DNA of 17,389 nucleotides from the NCBI GenBank assembly GCA_958420075.1, contig CATZIM010000011.1:1-17389 (forward strand). Reading direction: 5' to 3'. The notes beneath the pieces were generated by a model, which made no database searches, was not told the DNA's origin, and saw nothing but the letters and a program-made list of their open reading frames with translations. Below, in pieces: positions 7,323 to 17,334 of this stretch (within the stretch, counting starts at the first letter, position 1; the number at the start of each line of letters is the position of its first letter). The stretch is from an uncultured Clostridia bacterium. GTDB lineage: Bacteria > Bacillota > Clostridia > Lachnospirales > Anaerotignaceae. The translations under genes and the position numbers were made by a program.

Positions 7323-8621
7323 TTATGCAGATTGTTTTGCTACTTTTTCAGCTTTTTTTGCCTGATTGATTGCCAGAATCTGTGCACGTTTTTCTTTTGT
7401 CATGCGCAGCCAGATCAATGTCAGCAGGATACCTGCGGCGATTGTCAGTGTCAGCAGGATAAAGAAGATTCTATAGCCTGCAACGCCGGGGTATTTGTCC
7501 AGCATTGCCCCTGCAACGAAAGGACAGATTGCTTCGGGCAGGTAGCCGATGCAGCAGATAAAGCCAATGGCAGTACCAACGATTTCAGGAGGACAATCGA
7601 TTTCTGCCATGATGGCAAAATGCATACTCTGGCATACATACATGGTGGAGAAGATCAATACGCATGCAATCAGAATGGGGATGATGCCTGCGGATGCTGG
7701 CATGAACAGAACGATGCACATGCCGATAACCATGACGATCTGTCCCAGCAGCATCACTTTGGAGCTGTTGATGCGGTCACCCAGGATACCTGCCCCAAAT
7801 GCAGCTACAGGACGGATATACTGAGAGGAAGAGGACAGCATTGCTGCAAACAGTGTGCTTGCGCCAAATACCTCTGTTACATAGGGAGAGATATAGTAAT
7901 AACTCAGGTTCATGGTGTATGTTGTGAAGATGATACCGATCATCAGCCAGATGGAAGGCATCTTCAGCAGTCTGCCGATCATTTTCAGGCTAAAGCCGTC
8001 ACTGCCTTCTTCTTTGGATTCTTTCAGTCCTCTCAACAGGAAAATGCTTACGACACCAAGCAAAACGGTTCCGCCGGAAAAGAAGGTAATGATCCATTTG
8101 ATACCCATGCTTTCGCTGCCGGCAGCCATCATTCTGCCAAAAATGATTGCAGCAACAGCCAGATATACGGCATTGGTAATACCGCGACCGCCTTCAAAAA
8201 TACCGAAAGCTTTTCCTTGTTCGTTGGAAGCAGCCAGAGAACGAATGGCTTTCATTAATGCAGGCCAGAATGTCATCAGGGAAGTGATGCCCCAAATGCC
8301 ATGGATGATTGCGATAACCATAGGGGAGGGGCTGGTCAGCAGATAAAACCCAAGTCCGCCAGTGAGAATCATGGAAAAGGGAATCAGTTTTTTGATAGAA
8401 AATTTATCTGCGATAACCCCGCCAATCAAATAGGAAACTGCACCAAATAATCCAAAGTATGTACCGCATAAGCCCATTTCCGTATTGGTCATTTGGAATG
8501 TTGCCATAAAGGCATCATAGTAATATGACCGGAAGTAGGGCAGGGAGTAAATAAAAGCTCCTGACATTGTCAAAACAATCAACAGGAAAAAGTTCTTTTT
8601 CAATGATGAAGTATTTTCCAT
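7323..8621 (-). CDS. Major facilitator superfamily transporter
   Basis: A 432-residue inner-membrane protein with about twelve hydrophobic helices. The first follows a short charged N-terminus (FFLLIVLTMSGAFIYSLPYF), and the loop between helices 2 and 3 reads GGVIADKFSIKKL, the MFS A-loop signature. A long hydrophilic central loop (LRGLKESKEEGSDGFSLKMIGRLLK) separates the halves; the second half has the matching GILGDRINSSK. It ends in a lysine- and alanine-rich tail. A GTG at 8630 is in frame, but AAGGG lies about 10 bases before the ATG at 8621, so the latter is preferred. It starts 27 bases after the amidohydrolase ending at 8649, so it is the second gene of that operon and probably imports the hydrolase substrate or exports a product. 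The substrate cannot be read from sequence. Confidence 0.9.
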   Translation of the reverse strand: MENTSSLKKNFFLLIVLTMSGAFIYSLPYFRSYYYDAFMATFQMTNTEMGLCGTYFGLFGAVSYLIGGVIADKFSIKKLIPFSMILTGGLGFYLLTSPSPMVIAIIHGIWGITSLMTFWPALMKAIRSLAASNEQGKAFGIFEGGRGITNAVYLAVAAIIFGRMMAAGSESMGIKWIITFFSGGTVLLGVVSIFLLRGLKESKEEGSDGFSLKMIGRLLKMPSIWLMIGIIFTTYTMNLSYYYISPYVTEVFGASTLFAAMLSSSSQYIRPVAAFGAGILGDRINSSKVMLLGQIVMVIGMCIVLFMPASAGIIPILIACVLIFSTMYVCQSMHFAIMAEIDCPPEIVGTAIGFICCIGYLPEAICPFVAGAMLDKYPGVAGYRIFFILLTLTIAAGILLTLIWLRMTKEKRAQILAINQAKKAEKVAKQSA

Positions 8622-8648
8622 ATGTATCACACCCTTTTACGATATTTT

Positions 8649-9845
8649 TTATACATGAACAACATTGCCGTCTTTGATTACCAGTGCGACTTTTTCCAGA
8701 TCGTCGATACATTCGTCGGGTCTGCCGCTGAATGCTACCAGATTTGCTTTTTTGCCAACTTCAATGGTACCTACTTCATGATCGATTTTCAGGATTTCAG
8801 AAGTGTTCTTTGTTGCCTGAATCAGACAGTCCACAGGTCTGAAGTCCAGCAGATTGCAGCGTGCGCGGAATTCATAGATACCGTCGCCATGACCGCCTAC
8901 ATATACGCCGGCGTCAGTGGAGAAGCCCATTTTTACACCTGCTTCATAAGCGGCACGATAGCCTTCACACATCAATTTATGGAGTCTGCGGCTCTTTTCT
9001 ACATAGTGTGCGGGATGATCCTGGGCATGTTCCAGGAAGTTTGTCATGGGTGCCATGGTAGGCATCATAAATGTTTTATCTGTCTGCAAATACATGCGGA
9101 TACATTCTTCATCCATAATGGAGGAATGTTCTACAGTACGAACACCGATGCGGATAGCGGATTTGATGGCTTCTGTACCATGGGCGTGTCCCGCTACATA
9201 CAGTCCCAGCCGGTCAGCAGCTGTTACCATGGCTTCCAGTTCTTCGTCGGAAATGATGGAAGCGCCAGGTTCGCCGCCGGGGTTCATGATGGCGCCTGTA
9301 CCCATGTATTTGATGAAGTCTGCGCCTTTCTGCCACTGGGTGCGTACAGCTTTGACATATTCTTCGGGGCTGTCTGCTTCCAGATACATGCCGTCAAAGA
9401 AGTTGTTGCCTGCTTCTGTAGGAGAAAGGATCATGCCGCTTGCCAGAATGTCTGGGCCAACACAGTAGCCGCTGCGGATACCTTTTGCAAGCTGAATGAT
9501 AATGTCATTGCGGTCGCCCACATCACGCAGAGTGGTGTAGCCTTTTTTCAGGTTGTCCTGAGCTAAGCGCAGACCACGCAGAACGCGGTATGCGTTAGGC
9601 TGGATGTTTTCTTCAAATGTGTTCATGCCGCAAAGGTCCAGATGCACATGACCGTCAATCAGACCGGGAGTAACTGTTTTGTCTGTCATATCCAGGATAC
9701 AGTCCTCAGGTGCTTGTGCTGTCTTAGCAGCAACGATTTCCGCGATCTTGCCATCTACGATGACGATGTCAGCAGTGGGATTTTCGTAACCGGGTGTCAG
9801 TTCCGGTACAACACGGGCATTTCTTAAAACAAGCATTTCATTCAC
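8649..9845 (-). CDS. Metal-dependent amidohydrolase (COG1228/imidazolonepropionase-like), copy 1
   Basis: A 398-residue cytoplasmic hydrolase of the amidohydrolase superfamily. Metal ligands are visible in order: GHVHLD (His66, His68), Lys179 in ADFIKYMGTGAIMNPGG (expected carboxylated bridging lysine), His220 in GHAHGTEAIKSA, His240 in VEHSSIMD and Asp311 in FSTDAG. The usual small beta domain is formed by the N-terminus and the C-terminal GTIEVGKKANLVAFSG part. Characterised relatives include Xaa-Pro and Xaa-Arg type dipeptidases and other amide hydrolases, so a small dipeptide-like substrate is plausible but not proved. AAAGGA lies 7 bases before the ATG at 9845. It is first in an operon with the MFS transporter. 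It is a clear paralogue of the enzyme at 12662-13855, with long shared blocks such as SPTEAGN/TPTEAGN, MNPGGEPG and TTLRDVG/TTIRDVG. Confidence 0.92.
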   Translation of the reverse strand: MNEMLVLRNARVVPELTPGYENPTADIVIVDGKIAEIVAAKTAQAPEDCILDMTDKTVTPGLIDGHVHLDLCGMNTFEENIQPNAYRVLRGLRLAQDNLKKGYTTLRDVGDRNDIIIQLAKGIRSGYCVGPDILASGMILSPTEAGNNFFDGMYLEADSPEEYVKAVRTQWQKGADFIKYMGTGAIMNPGGEPGASIISDEELEAMVTAADRLGLYVAGHAHGTEAIKSAIRIGVRTVEHSSIMDEECIRMYLQTDKTFMMPTMAPMTNFLEHAQDHPAHYVEKSRRLHKLMCEGYRAAYEAGVKMGFSTDAGVYVGGHGDGIYEFRARCNLLDFRPVDCLIQATKNTSEILKIDHEVGTIEVGKKANLVAFSGRPDECIDDLEKVALVIKDGNVVHV

Positions 9846-9916: not shown

Positions 9917-9944
9917 TTTATACAGAAAGGTGCTTAAGGGTAAA
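9917..9944 (-). promoter_or_regulatory. Candidate promoter of the amidohydrolase-MFS operon
   Basis: On the minus strand, TTTACC (9939-9944), 16-base spacer, TATAAA (9917-9922); a shift to TAAAAT would give 18 bases. The match is moderate, which suits a regulated promoter. The start would be near 9910, about 65 bases before the gene. A shared TTTGGAATG element lies just upstream at 9960-9972. Confidence 0.45.
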
Positions 9945-9959
9945 GTACCGAACCTGATT

Positions 9960-9972
9960 TTTGGAATGTGCC
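9960..9972. promoter_or_regulatory. Shared element, copy B (TTTGGAATGTGCC)
   Basis: Plus-strand TTTGGAATGTGCC, between the mocR-like gene and the amidohydrolase operon, about 50-62 bases upstream of the proposed start. It shares the 11-mer TTTTTGGAATG (from 9958) with the element near 15491 and most of its bases with 11596-11607. Candidate binding site of the neighbouring regulator. Confidence 0.4.
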
Positions 9973-9979
9973 AAATGGG

Positions 9980-11461
9980 CTACAGGGAACGCTGATTTTT
10001 GCAGTAAGCAATGGCACGTTTTAATATTTCTACGCCTTCTTCGATCTGTTGTTCGTTGGGTGCAGAAAAACAGATCCTTAAAAATGTTTCACCTTTGCTG
10101 CCGCAAGGAAAAAATGCACAGCCGGGCATCAATAACAGCCCCATCTTTTCAGCAACGGAAACCAATAGCCTGTCGTTGATGCCTTCTTCCAGCTTGACCC
10201 AAAGATTTAATCCGCCATCTGGAATGTGGAAGGAGATCTCTGGAATTTCCGCCAGTTTGCGGCAAATGAGATCACGCCTTTTGCGGTAAAATTCTTTGAG
10301 AAATTGTTTGTGTTTGTCGTAGTAGCCTGTTTCAATGAATCTTGCCCAGAGATACTGTCCAAGGCTGTTGAGGAAAATCTGATCTTTGTTGATGATACGC
10401 CGATAGGTTTTGATGACGTTATCCGGGGCAACAATGTATCCGACTCTGGCACCGGGAAAGAATGCCAGTGTGGAAGAATCAATGTAAATAACGGAGTTGG
10501 TGTGGTCCATGGAATAGAGGCTTGGCAGCACTGTATCCGTATAATTGTATTCGTTTTGCGCATCTTCTTCGACGATAGGGATATGGTAGGACAGCACACA
10601 GTCCAGAAATTTTTGTCTTTTTTCGATGCTCATGGTGATGGATGAGGGGTTGTGGGAGTTCGGTATGGTATAGATCAGTTTTGGATGATAACGCTGAATC
10701 ATCTGCTCCAGTATTTCGATGGAGATACCGTCAGGTTCCATGGGAACAAAAAGCAGATTGGCGCCTGCGTGCAGAAAGATGTTTACAATAGCAGGGCAGG
10801 TAGGCTCCTCTACGATGACATAATCCCCTTTTTCCAGGTACATATAAGCGATATTGCTGAGGGCTTCAAAGGTTTCTGTGACAATCTGGATGTTATTGGG
10901 ATGCACATAAATATTCCTGCCAAAGAGCATCTTCACAAGACTGCGTCTGAGCCGCTCTGTGCCTTGAGGATCGCAGTGCCAAAACGGTTCCATGCTTTGA
11001 TTTTCTATGATTTCTGCCATCAGTTCTTTCAGATAGGCAATAGGCAAAGCATCCGGGTCCATAATCATGCCTGCAAAAGGAATGGCAGGTGTCATATAGG
11101 ATGAGTTATACAGTTCTTGAAAAGTGTTTTGCATACTGGTGAAATGATAATTCAAATTTTTGTCCAGAGAGGAAAAAGGTCTGTTTTTTCCCAATTGCTG
11201 AAAGGCGTTTTCATCTGCTTCGCTGCCTACAAAATACCCTCTGGGGGTTTTTCTGGAGGCAAAAATCAGACCTTCCTGTATCAGCGCTTCATATGCTTTG
11301 ACCACTGTGTTGCGGTGGATCTGCAATTTTTGGGCCAGTTGTCTTTCGGAAGGCAGCTTCAGTCCTTTGGTAAGCTGGGAAGATAAAATTTGAGATTTGA
11401 TATGATTTTTCAGTTGAAGATATAAGGGTGTTGAACTATTGCGATTTAACTGAATATCCAT
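9980..11461 (-). CDS. MocR/GntR-family regulator with a degenerate PLP site
   Basis: A 493-residue transcription factor: an N-terminal GntR winged helix (about 8-78; LPSERQLAQKLQIHRNTVVKAYEAL at 36-60) fused to a fold-type-I aminotransferase-like domain (about 120-490). MocR proteins normally bind PLP through a Lys in an (S/T)FSK(T)LxPGxRxGY motif. Here the stretch reads YIDSSTLAFFPGARVGY, with Leu332 where the Lys is expected. The usual EDDYDSE becomes EEDAQNE, replacing the pyridine-binding Asp by Glu299 and the nearby Tyr by Ala301. Arg339 and Arg462, at positions that contact substrate carboxylate in GabR, are kept. So it probably senses a carboxylated ligand without PLP (inference). The ATG at 11461 has GGAAGGAG 8 bases upstream. 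It lies between the two amidohydrolase operons and probably controls them and itself. There is no clear terminator after it, so some read-through into the next operon is possible. Confidence 0.92.
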   Translation of the reverse strand: MDIQLNRNSSTPLYLQLKNHIKSQILSSQLTKGLKLPSERQLAQKLQIHRNTVVKAYEALIQEGLIFASRKTPRGYFVGSEADENAFQQLGKNRPFSSLDKNLNYHFTSMQNTFQELYNSSYMTPAIPFAGMIMDPDALPIAYLKELMAEIIENQSMEPFWHCDPQGTERLRRSLVKMLFGRNIYVHPNNIQIVTETFEALSNIAYMYLEKGDYVIVEEPTCPAIVNIFLHAGANLLFVPMEPDGISIEILEQMIQRYHPKLIYTIPNSHNPSSITMSIEKRQKFLDCVLSYHIPIVEEDAQNEYNYTDTVLPSLYSMDHTNSVIYIDSSTLAFFPGARVGYIVAPDNVIKTYRRIINKDQIFLNSLGQYLWARFIETGYYDKHKQFLKEFYRKRRDLICRKLAEIPEISFHIPDGGLNLWVKLEEGINDRLLVSVAEKMGLLLMPGCAFFPCGSKGETFLRICFSAPNEQQIEEGVEILKRAIAYCKNQRSL

Positions 11462-11523: not shown

Positions 11524-11529
11524 CTAGTT

Positions 11530-11549
11530 TGGCACACTGGTGAGTGCCA
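11530..11549. promoter_or_regulatory. Inverted repeat over the mocR-like -35 region, candidate operator
   Basis: TGGCAC (11530-11535) and GTGCCA (11544-11549) form a perfect 6-base inverted repeat with an 8-base spacer. Related TGGTAT/GTACCA hexamers lie at 11485-11490, 11567-11572 and 11602-11607, giving five TGGYAY-type half sites in about 125 bases. Known MocR regulator GabR uses ATACCA repeats, so this is a plausible autoregulatory site. Confidence 0.45.
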
Positions 11550-11595
11550 TAATTGAACTTTAGACTGTACCATTATGAAAAAAAGATACAAAAAC

Positions 11596-11718: not shown

Positions 11719-12633
11719 TTACTTTTGATTTTGTAAGGATTTGACTTTTTGCTGGAATTGGATGGTGGTGGTGTTTTCGTCGTTCAGGTTTTCAAAACCG
11801 CTGCCCAATACCTCCGTTACCTTTTCTACCAGCATAAAGGCATGAGGGTCGTAGAGCTGGACCAGTTTGCGCACCTCTGCCACTTCATAAGGGCGTACCG
11901 TGACAAAATACACGTTTTTTTCCTGCTGTGCATACATACCGATACCCTGAAGCTGTGTCACACCTCGCCCCAGATGGTGCAGCAGTACATTGGAAATTTC
12001 AACAGAATCCTTGTTGCTGATGATGATACAGTTGCAGGCATTGTTGAAAATATCAATGATGTGATCGGTGACCGTTACATATGTGTAGATTGCCAAAATG
12101 GCGTACAGGCAGGATTCTGGGTCCCGATAGACCACAACGGACAACAGCACAACCAGACAATCGATGCACAGATACATTTTGCCTAAAGACAGATTTTTGT
12201 ACTTGAGCAGCATCAATTTGGCAAACAGGTCGGAGCCGCCTGTAGACAGACGTGCTTTTACCAGTAAAGCAGAACCAATGCCGTAGAGCACACCGCCGAA
12301 AATGGCAGCCAGGAACTTATTGGATGTCACCGAAGGCAGAAATGCCAGTGCGTCAACGGCAACGGAAAAAAGCAGTGTCAGGATCAATGTACTGATGGTA
12401 TATTCCTTGCCTTTGAGAAAAAAAGACAGAATCAGACAGGGAATATTCAGTATAAATAAGAATGCGCCAATGGAAATGGGCAGAAGGCTGCAAATGACCA
12501 TTGCCAATCCTGCAAAGCCACCGGATACAATTTGATTATGGACAAAAAACAGATCCATTGCCAAAGAGTATGTAATGATCGCACAAAAAGCCAAAAACCA
12601 TTTTTTTGCTTTTGCGTGAACGGTTTGGAGCAT
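11719..12633 (-). CDS. YitT family membrane protein (DUF161/DUF2179)
   Basis: A 304-residue protein of the YitT family, of unknown biochemical role. The N-terminal two thirds contain five or six hydrophobic segments with the family motifs VSGGFAGLA (about 37-45) and RLSTGGSDLFAKL (about 128-140). The C-terminal third, from about residue 215, is a soluble DUF2179-type domain (RGVTQLQGIGMYAQQEKNVYF, then HAFMLVEKVTEVLGSGF), with a charged, glutamine-rich tail. A GTG at 12639 is in frame but only one base from the Shine-Dalgarno; AGGGGG sits 7 bases before the ATG at 12633, so that start is used. It begins 28 bases after the amidohydrolase and is the last gene of the operon. YitT genes are usually solitary in genomes I know, so its place with a hydrolase and transporter genes is suggestive of a transport-related role, but this is inference. 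Confidence 0.9.
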   Translation of the reverse strand: MLQTVHAKAKKWFLAFCAIITYSLAMDLFFVHNQIVSGGFAGLAMVICSLLPISIGAFLFILNIPCLILSFFLKGKEYTISTLILTLLFSVAVDALAFLPSVTSNKFLAAIFGGVLYGIGSALLVKARLSTGGSDLFAKLMLLKYKNLSLGKMYLCIDCLVVLLSVVVYRDPESCLYAILAIYTYVTVTDHIIDIFNNACNCIIISNKDSVEISNVLLHHLGRGVTQLQGIGMYAQQEKNVYFVTVRPYEVAEVRKLVQLYDPHAFMLVEKVTEVLGSGFENLNDENTTTIQFQQKVKSLQNQK

Positions 12634-12661
12634 TGCCACGCCCCCTTAGTGTGTGTATAGA

Positions 12662-13855
12662 TCAATCATTTTTTACAACATTGCCGGATTTGATGACAGT
12701 TTTCACCTGATGCCGCAGCACGGAAATATCTTCCAAAGGATTGCCGTCAACAGCTACCAGGTCAGCCACCTTTCCTGTTTCGATGGTGCCATAATCCTTG
12801 TCGATACCCATGAGCATAGCGCTGTAAATGGTAGCCTGTTTGATGATGTCGATTTCGTCCATCTGCCAGAAATCTTTGCGGAGCATAAATTCATCACCAT
12901 TTTCTCCATGCGGCAGGGGAGTGGCACCGGAGTCTGTGCCAAAGCCCATGATCAGACCGGCTTCGTATGCTTTGCGAATGCCCACACGGACATGTTCCAA
13001 TACGGTTCTTGCTTTTTCCTGCATGAACAGAGAGGATTCTGGTACGCTTTCTGTCAGACCGTAAATGATTTTCAGTGTGGGAACGATGAAGGTTGTTTTG
13101 CTGTCTTTCAGCATTTCTATGGCTTCATCATCCAGTATGGACGCATGTTCCAGTGTTCTGACACCAGCCAGAATGGAATTTTTGATGGCACGAGTGCCAT
13201 GACAGTGGGTCGCCACATAGGTATCCTTAAAGGCTGCGGCATCTACCACGGCTTTCAGTTCTTCCAGTGTATAAATGGGCTGGCCGGGTTCGCCGCCAGG
13301 ATTCATAACCGCGCCTGTTCCCATAATCTTGATGAAATCTGCACCATGTTTCATTTCTTCCCGCACGGACTGCCAGATAGCAGTTTCGCCGTCCGCTTCG
13401 TTATACAGACCGGAGAAGAAATCATTGCCGGCTTCGGTAGGGGTGACGATCTTTCCGCAGGCGTAGATATTGGGTCCAACCAGTTTGCCGGCGTTGATGG
13501 CATCCCGCAGAGAAATGGCTACATTATAGTAACTGCCAACGTCACGAATGGTGGTGAATCCTGCCATCAGTGTATCATGGGCAAATTTTGCTGCATCCAG
13601 CGCCTGTTCCACAGGTGTTTTGGCGTTGTCGATCAAAGTATCGCCGCCGGAAAGGGACAGGTGAATATGCATGTCAAAGAAACCTGGCAATACATATTTT
13701 CCTTTCATGTCCAGGATGTAGTCTGCCTGGGGCAGCGGTGTGTCACAAGGCAGCAAAGAAGTGATGCGGTCGCCATCGATGACGATGTTACATGTGGTTT
13801 CCGGAAAATCACCGGATAATGCGGGGATGATGCTGCAATTTTTCAGTACGAACAT
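12662..13855 (-). CDS. Metal-dependent amidohydrolase (COG1228/imidazolonepropionase-like), copy 2
   Basis: A 397-residue cytoplasmic hydrolase and paralogue of the enzyme at 8649-9845. Metal ligands: His63 and His65 in DMHIHL, Lys176 in ADFIKIMGTGAVMNPGG, His217 in ATHCHGTRAIKNS, His237 in LEHASILD and Asp308 in GFGTDSG. All residues of the binuclear site are present, so it should be active. The loop after the catalytic Asp differs from copy 1 (ATPLPHGENGDEF against VYVGGHGDGIYEF), as does the region 257-280, suggesting a different side-chain preference. A TTG at 13870 is in frame, but GGAGG overlaps it and lies 8 bases before the ATG at 13855, which is chosen. It sits 26 bases after the second membrane gene and 28 before yitT, in a four-gene operon, so its substrate probably enters through the DUF5058-type pair. 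Confidence 0.92.
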   Translation of the reverse strand: MFVLKNCSIIPALSGDFPETTCNIVIDGDRITSLLPCDTPLPQADYILDMKGKYVLPGFFDMHIHLSLSGGDTLIDNAKTPVEQALDAAKFAHDTLMAGFTTIRDVGSYYNVAISLRDAINAGKLVGPNIYACGKIVTPTEAGNDFFSGLYNEADGETAIWQSVREEMKHGADFIKIMGTGAVMNPGGEPGQPIYTLEELKAVVDAAAFKDTYVATHCHGTRAIKNSILAGVRTLEHASILDDEAIEMLKDSKTTFIVPTLKIIYGLTESVPESSLFMQEKARTVLEHVRVGIRKAYEAGLIMGFGTDSGATPLPHGENGDEFMLRKDFWQMDEIDIIKQATIYSAMLMGIDKDYGTIETGKVADLVAVDGNPLEDISVLRHQVKTVIKSGNVVKND

Positions 13856-13881
13856 AACTATGACCTCCAATCATTTTTTTA

Positions 13882-14598
13882 TCAATCCGCAGAAGTGTTT
13901 TCTTCTGGTTCAGGATCAGGGTGAAATGTGAGTTTGCCAAACAGCATGGTTCCGAAAATGGGAATGATGATGGCTGGAATAAATGGATCAATGGGGAACC
14001 AGGCAAATAAGCCGTTTTGATAGAGCAAAAGGGAAATGATCGCCAGCGCCATGCCGCAGATGGCATCTTTTACGTCATCAACGGCAAATTGAGCAAATAC
14101 TGCCCCGAACAAAGCAGGCAGAAGGAAAGAAAATTTCTCCGTCACTGCTTCCGGCAGCATAGCGATGACTTTGCTTCCCACCAGTACCCCGATGACCAGC
14201 AAAATGGTGTTGACAAATATGGAAGCGGCTACACCAATGGTAGAGATGATGGAGCCTTCGGCAGTGCCGATCTGCGTATCTGTTGCTTTCAGGGCGGAAG
14301 CCGCGCAGGGCAGACGCAGGTTGCTGACATTCCCTGTCAGAAAAGACATATATGTGCCAGGTACTCCCAAAATCGGGAAGAACGAAATAGGCTCAATAAA
14401 CCACCAAACGGCGTTGATGGAAATTTGCGCGATCAAAGCAATGGTTAATTCCGTTTTGCCGGGAATGATCCCGAAATAAAACGTGACGAGCAGTGCGGGA
14501 ATAAAAACCAGAATGGAAGCCAGCCAGCAAGTCCACTTGCCGGTGCGGATGATTTGTGGAAGATAGGTATTTTTGTAGTAGTCATCTTGTTTTGACAT
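13882..14598 (-). CDS. Small polytopic membrane protein, partner of the DUF5058-type gene
   Basis: A 238-residue inner-membrane protein with about six hydrophobic segments (roughly 22-43, 50-72, 118-145, 155-178, 180-198, 203-225) and a hydrophilic, acidic C-terminal tail (HPDPEPEENTSAD). The conserved-looking central stretch ISFFPILGVPGTYMSFLTG followed by NVSNLRLPCAA recalls the gate-type domains of small paired transporters, but I cannot name a family with certainty. GGAGG lies 7 bases before the ATG at 14598, excluding the longer in-frame start at 14637. It begins 13 bases after the upstream membrane gene, so the two are almost certainly co-translated and may form one complex. The nearest analogy is E. 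coli yjiH-yjiG beside the isoaspartyl dipeptidase gene iadA, which is also an amidohydrolase next to two small membrane proteins. Confidence 0.85.
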   Translation of the reverse strand: MSKQDDYYKNTYLPQIIRTGKWTCWLASILVFIPALLVTFYFGIIPGKTELTIALIAQISINAVWWFIEPISFFPILGVPGTYMSFLTGNVSNLRLPCAASALKATDTQIGTAEGSIISTIGVAASIFVNTILLVIGVLVGSKVIAMLPEAVTEKFSFLLPALFGAVFAQFAVDDVKDAICGMALAIISLLLYQNGLFAWFPIDPFIPAIIIPIFGTMLFGKLTFHPDPEPEENTSAD

Positions 14599-14611
14599 GG
14601 TGATCCCTCCT

Positions 14612-15316
14612 TCAGAAAAAAGCTGCGGCACAGACACCGCTGACCATGGCGATGGTTAAGCCCCATTCGTTGAGCCATTTGATTTTTTTCTTTTTGTAGA
14701 TAAAAATAATGACTAACATCACAAAGAATCCGGAAAGAAGTGCAACGGTATTGGCATCCAAACCGATGGCGTAGCCTGCCGTCAGGTAACCATATGCGCC
14801 AAGCATTGCCGCAGTGGAAATGGCAGGGATCAGTTTAGAAGCGTTGCTTCCTTTGGATAAGCGGGTTTTGACTTTTTCCATTTTATCGGTAAACAGTGCC
14901 GTAACCACGATCCAGCCAATACAGCCGAAAGCCATACACCAAAGCGTTACAGAGAAAACTTCGGGGGGCAGATTGGGATCGCTGATGGTGACACCATAAG
15001 CATCGGCAGCAAATTCCGCTGCCAGCAGTTCATAGGCAACATTTCCGATATAGGCAAGACGCATCAGCGCCGTAGGTCCGCCCACAACGATCAAAAGGGA
15101 TACCATACCGATGACAACAACCATAGAAGGTCCGATGGCAGAAACTGCGCCAACCTTAAAAGCTGTATGCAGTGTTTTCTTTTCCAGTCCCATTTTTTCG
15201 CCGGCAGAAAAACTTTTTTTCAGAAAAACGATCACTTGAAATAATACGAGGGCAATAGCTGAAAAAGTAATCAGCCAAAGAATACCGCTGTTTGCAATTT
15301 CTTCATAACCTTTCAC
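14612..15316 (-). CDS. DUF5058-like membrane protein
   Basis: A 234-residue inner-membrane protein with about six hydrophobic segments (roughly 10-32, 55-80, 115-142, 162-182, 186-206, 214-233). The pattern of a short N-terminal segment, then FLKKSFSAGEKMGLEKKTLHTAFKVG split as cytoplasmic loop, then AVSAIGPSMVVVIGMVSLL, matches what I remember of DUF5058 proteins; the exact family name is from memory. The start is taken as GTG at 15316 because GAAGGG lies 7 bases before it; upstream in-frame codons to 15505 belong to the leader and run through the promoter. It is first of four genes (partner membrane protein, amidohydrolase, YitT). With its partner it probably forms a small two-subunit transporter; no ATPase or binding protein is present. 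Confidence 0.8.
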   Translation of the reverse strand: MKGYEEIANSGILWLITFSAIALVLFQVIVFLKKSFSAGEKMGLEKKTLHTAFKVGAVSAIGPSMVVVIGMVSLLIVVGGPTALMRLAYIGNVAYELLAAEFAADAYGVTISDPNLPPEVFSVTLWCMAFGCIGWIVVTALFTDKMEKVKTRLSKGSNASKLIPAISTAAMLGAYGYLTAGYAIGLDANTVALLSGFFVMLVIIFIYKKKKIKWLNEWGLTIAMVSGVCAAAFF

Positions 15317-15414
15317 ATAGATTCCCTTCCTTCTAAAAATGCAAATTTCAATCGACAGTATGTCTATAAAATGATTTTTGACAACAAAATCCCTATGGAG
15401 AAAAGAGAAAATAT

Positions 15415-15426
15415 AAAGGCGCCTTT
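15415..15426. promoter_or_regulatory. Perfect 12-base palindrome at the start of the DUF5058 operon transcript
   Basis: AAAGGCGCCTTT, exactly self-complementary, about +6 to +17 from the predicted start. The position suits a repressor operator. Confidence 0.4.
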
Positions 15427-15438
15427 TGTATTTGCCTG

Positions 15439-15468
15439 AGTATAGCATTTGCATTTTCTCATTGTAAA
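15439..15468 (-). promoter_or_regulatory. Promoter of the DUF5058-to-YitT operon
   Basis: On the minus strand: TTTACA (15463-15468), 18-base spacer, TATACT (15439-15444), with TGC immediately before the -10 giving an extended -10. Both hexamers match 5 of 6. The start is expected near 15432, so the leader is about 116 bases. Confidence 0.65.
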
Positions 15469-15490
15469 TGTATTTTGGAAGATTGCTTTT

Positions 15491-15511
15491 TTTGGAATGG
15501 TACATATACCA
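15491..15511. promoter_or_regulatory. Shared element, copy A (TTTGGAATGGTAC) with inverted repeat
   Basis: Plus-strand TTTGGAATGGTAC at 15491-15503, overlapping the inverted repeat TGGTA-CATA-TACCA at 15498-15511. It lies about 60-80 bases upstream of the predicted DUF5058 operon start, an activator-like position. It shares the 11-mer TTTTTGGAATG with the copy at 9960-9972. Confidence 0.4.
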
Positions 15512-15900
15512 ATTTTTATGTGCAGGATTGCTAAAATAAAAAATTATATGAAAAAGGAAAGTCAGATTTTTCTATATGAGGAAAAGATACTGGAGAATTT
15601 TGCTTTTAAATTTTTCAGTGGAATCTTTTCAGAAACAGCAGGGGAAAGAGATGTGTCCATAACCATTGCTTATAGTGTACCAAGGGAGAGTTTGTGCTTT
15701 TCTTAGGATGAAAGAATGAAAAAGATTGGAGGTTTTGCTGGCAGTCTTTGGTGTGTTTTTTTTGAAATACAAAATTATGTATACAATGGACATGCCCTCT
15801 AGACAAAAGAAGATGATTTTAGAATTGCATTTTTTGTACCACCCCCAAAAAGACTTACAGACAGAGCCATTAACGGAGTCTGGCAATGCCAACAATGCAA

Positions 15901-15934
15901 AAAAGGCGTTTTCTATAAAAAGAAAACGCCTTTT
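15901..15934 (-). terminator. Terminator of the sigma-54 activator gene
   Basis: AAAAGGCGTTTTCT (15901-15914) and AGAAAACGCCTTTT (15921-15934) form a perfect 14-base stem with a 6-base loop; on the minus strand six T residues follow the stem's GC core. It begins 15 bases after the stop codon and separates the activator from the DUF5058 operon. Confidence 0.9.
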
Positions 15935-15948
15935 GTTCTATTCTGATA

Positions 15949-17334
15949 TTATTCATTCCATTTGATTTTGTGTTTTTTTAATTTGCGCGAAACGGATGGC
16001 TGGCTGATCTGCAATGCCTCCGCGATTTCATAAGTGGTTTTATATTTTTTCGCGGCATTTTGTAAAATGGTGTGCTCCAAGTTATCATAAGCTTCTTTTA
16101 AAGGAATGATTTCATCCGCTTCCAATTCCAATATAGAAGCAACAGAAGGATTCCAAGGGAGCAATCCTGCTTTTGGTGTGATTTCATTTTCTTCGGATGT
16201 TACCAAGATACGTTCAATGATATTTTCCAGCTCCCGGACATTGCCCGGCCAGTCGTAATCCATCAGGCATTTGAGCATGCTGGGAGAAAGCTTTTTATTC
16301 ATTTTATACTTTTCGTTGATGTTGTTCACGAAGTACTCGATGAGGGGCGGGATATCCGTTTTTCTCTCCCGCAAGGGCGGCAGGACGATGGATACCACAT
16401 TCAGACGGTAGTATAAGTCTTGGCGGAATGATTTCTCCTGTACCATTTCTTCCAGATTGCGGTTGGTAGCGGCAATGATGCGGGTGTCGATGGGAATGGA
16501 CTTTGTGGAGCCGATACGGGAAATGGTTTTTTCCTGCAGGACACGGAGCAGTTTTACCTGCAAATGCAAAGGCATATCCCCGATTTCATCCAGAAAGACC
16601 GTTCCTTTGTTTGCCATTTCAAAAATACCGATATGCCCATTCTTTTTGGCACCTGTAAAGGAACCGCCTTCATAACCAAACAGTTCTGATTCCAGAAGAT
16701 TTTCTGGAATGGCGCCGCAGTTGATTTTCAAAAATAAGCTGTTGTTCCGGTGGCTCTGTTCGTGTATCTCTCTGGCAACCACCTCTTTGCCGGTACCGGA
16801 CTCGCCCAGTATCAGCACAGTGGAATCCACATTGGCAACTTTATGGGCCAAAGACATGACGTTTTTGAATTCCTGGCTTTCTGCCACATAATTCTGTGTT
16901 TTCTGCATTTTGTTGAGCCGCTGTTGGTATTGGTCAATGAGAAAACGCGAATGTTTCAGGTCTTCTTCAATTTTATTCAGTACGGTCACATCTCGAACAA
17001 AGGAAACCACCATCAGTATTTCGTCCTGATCGAAAATGGGAAAGCCGTTGAGGGCAACTTTTTTGCCGTTTTTGATTTCCTGTTCGATGCTGACTGGTTT
17101 TTTGGTCTCAATGACTTTTTGTGTAATGGAGGTAGAGAGATAACCTTCCTGTACGATCTGGGTCATATATTTTCCGATGAGATTTTCCGCATTCAGTCCT
17201 GTGATTTCTTCATAGGCACGATTTACCTGCAGCGTCAGACCATCGGCGTTGGTGATATAAATCCCGTCGGTAAAGGTATCAAAAACCTTTTCCCAGTTTT
17301 TTGGATCTTGCATATCCAATAGTTTTTTAGACAC
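15949..17334 (-). CDS. Sigma-54-dependent transcriptional activator with PAS sensor
   Basis: A 461-residue bacterial enhancer-binding protein. A PAS domain (about 10-118; VFDTFTDGIYITNADG, SFVRDVT) leads through a predicted coiled-coil linker (about 120-147) to the AAA+ sigma-54 interaction domain (about 150-375): Walker A GESGTGKE (177-184), sigma-54 contact loop GSFTGA (224-229, Ser replacing the usual Ala), Walker B FLDE (247-250), and the arginine-finger region FRQDLYYRL (303-311), with WPGNVRELEN at 362-371. The C-terminal helix-turn-helix (about 433-457; YEIAEALQISQPSVSRKLKKH) resembles the TyrR/Fis type. The start is GTG at 17334 with GGGAGG about 10 bases upstream. No receiver domain is present, so control is by a small molecule or redox signal at PAS. 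A divergent sigma-54 promoter lies 27 bases upstream (17361-17376), pointing to its likely target outside the window. Confidence 0.95.
   Translation of the reverse strand: MSKKLLDMQDPKNWEKVFDTFTDGIYITNADGLTLQVNRAYEEITGLNAENLIGKYMTQIVQEGYLSTSITQKVIETKKPVSIEQEIKNGKKVALNGFPIFDQDEILMVVSFVRDVTVLNKIEEDLKHSRFLIDQYQQRLNKMQKTQNYVAESQEFKNVMSLAHKVANVDSTVLILGESGTGKEVVAREIHEQSHRNNSLFLKINCGAIPENLLESELFGYEGGSFTGAKKNGHIGIFEMANKGTVFLDEIGDMPLHLQVKLLRVLQEKTISRIGSTKSIPIDTRIIAATNRNLEEMVQEKSFRQDLYYRLNVVSIVLPPLRERKTDIPPLIEYFVNNINEKYKMNKKLSPSMLKCLMDYDWPGNVRELENIIERILVTSEENEITPKAGLLPWNPSVASILELEADEIIPLKEAYDNLEHTILQNAAKKYKTTYEIAEALQISQPSVSRKLKKHKIKWNE

Follow-up and report, generated by a model that had tools for sequence, protein, structure and literature searches.

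The window, that is, the whole 17,389-nucleotide stretch of Clostridia DNA analysed here, encodes a MocR/GabR-type regulator (positions 9980–11461, minus strand; 493 amino acids plus stop) that lacks the lysine anchoring pyridoxal phosphate (PLP) in this subfamily. At lower coordinates on the minus strand lie a COG1228-type amidohydrolase (8649–9845; best PDB match L-arginine carboxypeptidase Cc2672, 3mtw) and an MFS transporter (7323–8630). At higher coordinates, also on the minus strand, are a YitT-family membrane protein with a DUF2179 domain (11719–12639) and a second COG1228-type amidohydrolase (12662–13870; best PDB match Xaa-Pro dipeptidase 2qs8). Both amidohydrolases score below the 500-bit cut-off of the NCBIfam Xaa-Pro dipeptidase model NF051886 (270.7 bits for 8649–9845 and 309.4 bits for 12662–13870). 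The region preceding the second amidohydrolase (13882–17334, same strand) encodes a PAS-type sigma-54 activator, a DUF5058 membrane protein and a 251-amino-acid membrane protein without a Pfam match; a weak sigma-54-like site with two mismatches is located at 15826–15841. The window also contains two direct-repeat operator-like sites, both on the minus strand. The first, TGGTAC-N17-TGGCACT (11543–11572), lies upstream of the regulator gene, with an inverted box, TTTGGCACA, beside it on the plus strand (11528–11536). The second, TGGCAC-N17-CGGTACT (9944–9973), has C for T in its second box and lies upstream of the amidohydrolase–MFS pair. No match to the operator pattern was found upstream of the amidohydrolase at 12662–13870.

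The regulator is composed of a GntR winged helix-turn-helix head (PF00392, residues 13–70; 5.4e-12, 45.6 bits against a cut-off of 27) and a C-terminal fold-type-I aminotransferase domain, a fold also predicted by confident structure models. Codon 332 is CTG, encoding Leu, and a phmmer alignment places Leu332 opposite the Schiff-base lysine of the Pyrococcus aminotransferase 3aov, which bears out the claim of the initial annotation that this leucine stands where the PLP-anchoring lysine is expected. In the same alignment, Glu299, Ala301 and Gln302 are paired with Asp, Pro and Tyr, respectively. The protein thus lacks the Schiff-base lysine of PLP-dependent MocR regulators, and it lacks their phosphate cup and stacking aromatic as well, carrying Glu196 for Gly, Phe198 for Gln and Cys222 for Tyr/Phe; Arg462, aligned with GabR Arg430, is kept. 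Column 222 lies opposite a Tyr of 3aov and presumably corresponds to GabR Tyr205, the aromatic residue that stacks on PLP. A substitute Schiff-base lysine elsewhere in the protein was also considered and rejected. The lysine columns common to at least 60% of the 46 Lys-less rows of our tree are 35, 55, 261 and 395, and none is suitable: columns 35 and 55 belong to the DNA head, column 395 is Arg in the window regulator, and column 261 is also Lys in 91% of the Lys-containing rows.

Of 421 proteins obtained in the homology search, 120 are listed and form the basis of the counts given here. Among those 120, residue 332 is Leu in 93, Lys in 16, Phe in 4, Ala in 2 and Met, Ile, Gly or Ser in one each, with one gap; Lys is thus absent from 103 of the 119 scorable homologues among the matches listed. 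Whether this loss is clade-wide, a question raised by the initial annotation, was addressed with a maximum-likelihood tree from which the trait columns were excluded. Before tree building, nine proteins were dropped as fragments and five loci because they contained partial genes or repeated the window; thinning at 70% identity then reduced 174 rows to 79. In a quick tree, all 46 Lys-less rows lie beyond one branch with an SH-aLRT support of 100, separate from the 33 Lys-containing rows. The same split was recovered with 100/100 support (bootstrap/SH-aLRT) in a more careful tree of 45 versus 32 rows, from which the long rows P0089 and L062 had been removed. The Lys-less rows are thus a single clade, in which PLP was, on the evidence of these alignments, apparently given up once; the Lys-containing rows came from the same queries, and a single loss event holds for this sample rather than for the whole subfamily. 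Within the clade, 14 rows form an arginine-deiminase branch (support 100/99), whereas the remaining Lys-less rows (hereafter referred to as the peptide group) are not recovered as a clade of their own and need two changes on the tree.

Sampling of genomes yielded Lys-less genes at low frequency. Searching genome contigs with the window protein alone found no relatives; an alignment query found 37 loci. The regulators of L022, L039 and L040 rest on the tblastn match, a longer opposite frame having won in ORF calling, and L129 is a locus identical to L046. L049 ([Clostridium] citroniae) was left out as a partial match; the match is limited to regulator residues 1–105 (63%), which points to truncation or breakage of this copy. 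When 398 phylum genomes were surveyed with a profile at E 1e-95, 16 matches were obtained from 15 genomes, and every one of them has Lys. In two surveys of 391 class genomes at E 1e-120, G098 (three) and G251 (one) were the two genomes that yielded Lys-less members. Scoring in these phylum and class surveys covered the top three or four candidates of each genome, and remoter Lys-less proteins would fall below the cut-offs. Among 30 loci fetched in a survey of 291 class genomes, two (L050 and L058) are Lys-less. The hosts of Lys-less loci include Clostridium, Hespellia, Enterococcus, Flavonifractor, Emergencia and Anaerovorax, and one homologue among the matches listed comes from Fusobacterium ulcerans. 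The three Lys-less MocR genes of G098 (L123, L124 and L125) are two of peptide type and one of arginine type, and one Lys-less copy in that genome is interrupted by an in-frame stop. A 718-amino-acid metagenome protein (P0080) joins the N-terminal part of the regulator to an M20 peptidase domain and is either a true fusion or an assembly artefact. In seven genomes (G126, G046, G074, G180, G236, G202 and G156), Lys-containing relatives adjoin a second aminotransferase-domain match without a DNA head, and AATTGG-type boxes can be seen by eye upstream of these relatives.

The rarity of Lys-less genes (found in 2 of 391 class genomes under the cut-offs applied) and the interrupted copy in G098 would be compatible with a sequencing or assembly error, or with a decaying gene. 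However, the matches listed include 103 Lys-less protein clusters, the frames are open, and neighbours and operators are conserved. Because the Lys-less proteins form one fully supported clade, we consider this explanation already refuted and give it next to no credence.

The loss of the lysine is accompanied by changes throughout the cofactor site. Residue 196 is Glu in all 103 Lys-less and Gly in all 16 Lys-containing homologues among the matches listed, and the thinned tree set shows the same division (Glu in 46/46 and Gly in 33/33, respectively). This Gly-to-Glu change turns the phosphate cup from SGSQQ to SETxxA in the Lys-less proteins. Column 222 is Tyr or Phe in 33 of 33 Lys-containing tree rows versus none of the 46 Lys-less rows, and Phe222 is retained in 2 of the 103 Lys-less homologues among the matches listed. 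Arg339 is present in all 33 Lys-containing rows versus 16 of the 46 Lys-less ones; it is replaced by Ser, Gly or Pro in every one of the 14 arginine-branch rows and kept in half of the peptide-group rows, the window regulator among them. Ser331 is found in 33/33 Lys-containing versus 13/46 Lys-less rows, 12 of those 13 belonging to the arginine branch (12/14). Asn271 is kept in 31 of the 46 Lys-less rows (26 of 32 in the peptide group), and Arg462 in all 46. Most cofactor contacts have therefore been lost jointly, whereas the contact to the ligand carboxylate has been kept.

These counts also bear on two narrower points of the initial annotation. It had read the change of an EDDY motif to EEDA as a sign of PLP loss. 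The substitutions, Glu299 and Ala301, are present, but they are weak evidence: Asp299 is retained in 45 of the 103 Lys-less homologues, and residue 301 is Pro in 13 and Ala in 3 of the 16 Lys-containing ones (both among the matches listed), so that Ala301 alone is uninformative. Judged by the alignments, the Glu196 change and the lost aromatic at 222, which that reading had missed, are the stronger signs. It had further assigned both Arg339 and Arg462 to the ligand carboxylate. According to Table 2 of PMC6917764, Arg319 of GabR contacts the PLP phosphate, and the GABA carboxylate is held by His114, Arg207 and Arg430. Arg462 fits the proposed role and, by its alignment with GabR Arg430, is the probable carboxylate residue for the ligand. 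Arg339 does not: a constant 20-residue offset matches it to GabR Arg319, making it the phosphate arginine.

Since Asn271, Ser331 (in the arginine branch) and Arg339 (in half of the peptide group) persist, some parts of the B6 site remain. The domain could thus still use PLP or another B6 compound noncovalently and sense a PLP–amino acid adduct formed in solution. In the window regulator, Arg339, Asn271 and Thr331 could help to hold the phosphate or the pyridine ring, and Ser331 is kept in 12 of the 14 arginine-branch rows. However, the phosphate-cup Glu that is invariant among the matches listed (103/103) should repel a phosphate, the aromatic at 222 is missing from 46 of 46 Lys-less tree rows, and all 14 arginine-branch rows have Ser, Gly or Pro in place of the phosphate arginine. 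We therefore regard residual B6 use as improbable.

The neighbourhoods of the Lys-less genes were compared over the fetched stretches, up to 8 kb on each side, in 21 peptide-group loci (20 plus the window) and the 16 other loci, which make up the arginine branch. In the peptide group, one MFS transporter cluster, to which the transporter of the window belongs, occurs in 16 of 21 loci. Ten loci contain the main M20 amidohydrolase cluster, and five, the window among them, contain COG1228 amidohydrolases. Four more loci have other M20-type enzymes (L013, L014, L015 and L030). Among these, NCBIfam models scored above their cut-offs for an M20 amidohydrolase in L013 and L015 and for a dipeptidase in L014, and the enzyme of L030 belongs to the cluster of that of L013. 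In four peptide-group loci the transporter resembles YfcC, named 'putative basic amino acid antiporter', at 275.6 bits, below the cut-off of 500. Given these transporters and the 3mtw match of the window amidohydrolase, basic amino acids are a recurring but unproven theme. A YitT-family gene is present in 4 of 21 peptide-group loci; it accompanies the regulator in five loci (L016, L025, L045, L126 and the window), an arrangement that recalls the YczR–YczE pairing.

The arginine branch is associated with the arginine deiminase pathway genes arcA (13/16 loci), arcB (10/16) and arcC (7/16). The usual order is regulator-arcB-arcA-arcC on one strand, and arcA directly follows the regulator in L035 and L043; in the three loci without arcA (L037, L044 and L048), the contig ends in or just behind the regulator gene. 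NCBIfam models confirm arginine deiminase in both L034 and L035 and, in L034, also ornithine carbamoyltransferase and carbamate kinase. L128, a later-fetched locus of genome G251, has the gene order of the arginine branch. Lys-less MocR regulators directly upstream of arginine deiminase genes are thus found in L031–L035, L037–L043, L046, L047 and L128. GntC and MppQ are enzymes acting on arginine derivatives; against their models the L034 and L035 regulators score 129–140 bits. The window protein scores 112 and 104 bits, and no score comes near the cut-offs.

The window sites match by sequence the layout described for MocR operators in PMC5320631, namely direct repeats, often with an inverted box. 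The pattern has two matches in the window against 0.03 expected, and none of 200 separate shuffles reaches two, the pattern having been made after the fact. All operator patterns were drawn up post hoc from upstream regions and loosened before the gap-scan counts, and a C at the start of the second box was allowed expressly to admit the site at 9944–9973. For the locus sets, expected numbers come from dinucleotide Markov resamplings. Sigma-54 promoters were considered as the origin of the TGGCAC boxes and rejected: the −24/−12 pattern with at most two mismatches has 15 matches in the window versus 13.45 expected, and neither operator is among them.

In the peptide group, TGG(YAC/ACT/AAC)-N17-[TC]GGYAC[TA] has 14 matches in 311,036 bases versus 0.25 expected. 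Eleven of these lie 90–160 bp upstream of a regulator, MFS, amidohydrolase or M20 gene; of the other three, two overlap the start called for a gene of this kind, and the third, in L022, precedes the regulator match by about 140 bp. With a wider pattern, 15 of 21 loci have a site at gap 17, compared with 0–4 loci at any other gap from 10 to 29. The pattern is absent from 6 of the 21 loci and from L126 and L127, which are of peptide type and were fetched later. In the arginine branch, the spacing is one base longer: TGGYAC-N18-TGGYACT has 10 matches versus 0.0 expected, 8 of them just upstream of arcB. A looser pattern is found at gap 18 in 15 of 17 loci (L128 included) and at other gaps in 0–2. 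L044 and L048, which have no site, break off within the regulator gene. Wherever the sequence behind the regulator is available (15 loci), it contains a site, if one with two mismatches in L042 is included. L128 was fetched after the arginine-branch pattern had been made and has a gap-18 site with one mismatch. Further N18 sites (L035, 6259; L039, 6374; L042, 5019; L043, 6373) precede, by 35–150 bp, the called start of a gene for a membrane protein with weak similarity to YlbJ; this protein may be a transporter of arginine or ornithine that is controlled in the same way.

By comparison, 46 Lys-containing MocR loci (200 kb, with flanks of about 1.5 kb per locus and three places fetched twice) show no gap peak, with two matches at gap 17 and none at gap 18. 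Pattern counts over whole genomes do not exceed those of a reversed control (13 versus 18 in six genomes; 7 versus 8 in eight genomes) and point to no additional sites. The case for an operator draws its strength from the fixed spacing and the promoter position of the sites. The groups are also distinguished by two DNA-head columns, with His49 against Asn and Tyr76 against Thr, and these changes are in line with an altered DNA target. The sites also speak to the idea that the protein is now enzyme-like, or a binding protein, with no regulatory role, and that the boxes belong to another regulator. The six peptide-group loci without the pattern would suit that idea, but the GntR head is intact, the sites stand before the regulator gene or adjoining genes, and the spacing differs by one base between the two regulator groups with no peak in Lys-containing loci. 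We regard it as very unlikely.

The initial annotation had proposed that the domain has become a PLP-independent sensor, perhaps for a substrate of the neighbouring amidohydrolases. The clade-wide loss of Lys, the remodelled phosphate cup and the retained carboxylate Arg favour such a sensor, as do candidate operators before amidohydrolase, transporter, peptidase and arginine deiminase genes; the site directly upstream of one of the two window amidohydrolases supports the link to these enzymes. We think it probable that the protein acts as a receptor without PLP, to which an amino acid or peptide product binds directly and whose target genes serve the breakdown of that product. Cofactor loss from the Lys-less clade is strongly supported by the alignments; the absence of PLP in the cell, direct ligand binding, the identity of the ligand, the dimer contacts and activation as against repression are what we infer beyond it.

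In the proposed mechanism, a branch of the MocR/GabR subfamily would have dropped PLP, and the empty aminotransferase site would have become a direct ligand pocket. The GntR heads of the dimer would read two TGGYAC-type direct-repeat boxes placed 23 bp start to start, or about two helical turns; in the window these would be the boxes in front of the regulator's own gene and of the amidohydrolase–MFS pair. The C-terminal domain would hold an amino acid, an N-acyl amino acid or a dipeptide through contact of the ligand carboxylate with Arg462. In what used to be the phosphate cup, Glu196 would put a negative charge where the PLP phosphate sat, repelling phosphate and attracting a positive group. 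Ligand binding may then close the domain and shift the DNA heads, as PLP–GABA is thought to do in GabR. The sister branch would apply the same design to arginine deiminase genes, with arginine as the natural candidate ligand. In the window regulator, Glu196 might pair with Arg339 instead of touching the ligand; in the arginine branch Arg339 is gone but Glu196 is kept, which favours a ligand role for Glu196 there.

Alternatively, the domain may serve as a dimerization scaffold only, a small molecule being either not sensed or sensed elsewhere. The Lys302His variant of EnuR, which is unable to bind PLP, is reported in PMC8739950 to be a constitutive repressor, and the variability of residue 332 (Leu, Phe, Ala, Met, Ile, Gly or Ser) would also suit a scaffold. 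However, Arg462 and Glu196 are each retained in 46 of 46 Lys-less tree rows, as expected for a pocket in use, and the regulators remain beside catabolic genes. A scaffold thus seems unlikely, although less so than residual B6 use. Returning to the PLP-free receptor, we tentatively put forward a fuller version, whose chances we place a little below even. It would be a clade of cofactor-free amino-acid receptors derived from a dead PLP aminotransferase by one loss of PLP, in which the invariant Glu takes the positive end of the ligand (the arginine guanidinium in the arginine-deiminase branch) and the carboxylate Arg is kept. Free arginine or peptide-derived amino acids would switch their own breakdown genes without B6, and the DNA head would have moved to a new operator, TGGYAC, along the same branch.

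A whole MocR branch lacking the lysine would mean that an enzyme-derived sensor can shed its cofactor and keep working; for Oscillibacter and other Clostridia, it would also provide a candidate for a regulator dedicated to the arginine deiminase genes. The Lys-less proteins would also be natural mutants for testing the role of PLP in MocR signalling. The database name 'PLP-dependent aminotransferase family protein', given to some of them (P0032 and P0043), would likewise call for caution.

Descriptions of MocR regulators present them as PLP-dependent. All MocR-like regulators are said in PMC2018728 to have the PLP lysine, and PMC6677901 gives Lys312 as conserved in all three clusters of 1331 sequences. 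The open-access literature, most subscription papers lying outside its scope, yielded nothing on a Lys-less MocR group, its operator or MocR control of arginine deiminase genes. The MocR/GabR subfamily is thus known, and the PLP-less clade, its operator and the arginine deiminase link, which did not turn up in that literature, are apparently new.

Among NCBIfam models, the regulator scores best against PdxR (NF052282; 312.1 bits over the full length, below the cut-off of 320). PdxR is a MocR-like regulator of vitamin B6 synthesis, from which the window protein differs in lacking the PLP lysine; no B6 genes were found among the neighbours looked at. The pairing of a MocR-type gene with a DUF161/YitT-like membrane protein gene resembles YczR–YczE. 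However, YczR retains the PLP Lys and Asp according to PMC4944035, and the YitT-like neighbour in the window has a DUF2179 domain that YczE lacks. Compared with LysN and kynurenine aminotransferase II enzymes, the regulator has an extra DNA-binding head and no PLP lysine. EnuR, the ectoine regulator, shares the MocR architecture, and PMC8739950 describes a substrate-derived inducer that switches catabolic genes and a requirement for Lys302-bound PLP. In the window regulator, by contrast, this lysine is naturally absent; in view of the constitutive repression by EnuR Lys302His, natural loss of the lysine with a retained ligand Arg is unexpected.

A close parallel in design is GabR of Bacillus subtilis and its MocR/GabR subfamily, although the score against the GabR model (NF052285) is 186.9 bits, below the cut-off of 600. 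The window regulator shares with them the GntR head and aminotransferase-fold domain, direct-repeat operators and the carboxylate Arg (GabR Arg430, here Arg462). The site upstream of its own gene further suggests self-regulation, as in GabR. It differs from GabR in lacking the Schiff-base Lys and the stacking aromatic at 222, in carrying Glu in its phosphate cup and in having an operator of the form TGG(YAC/ACT)-N17-TGGYACT.
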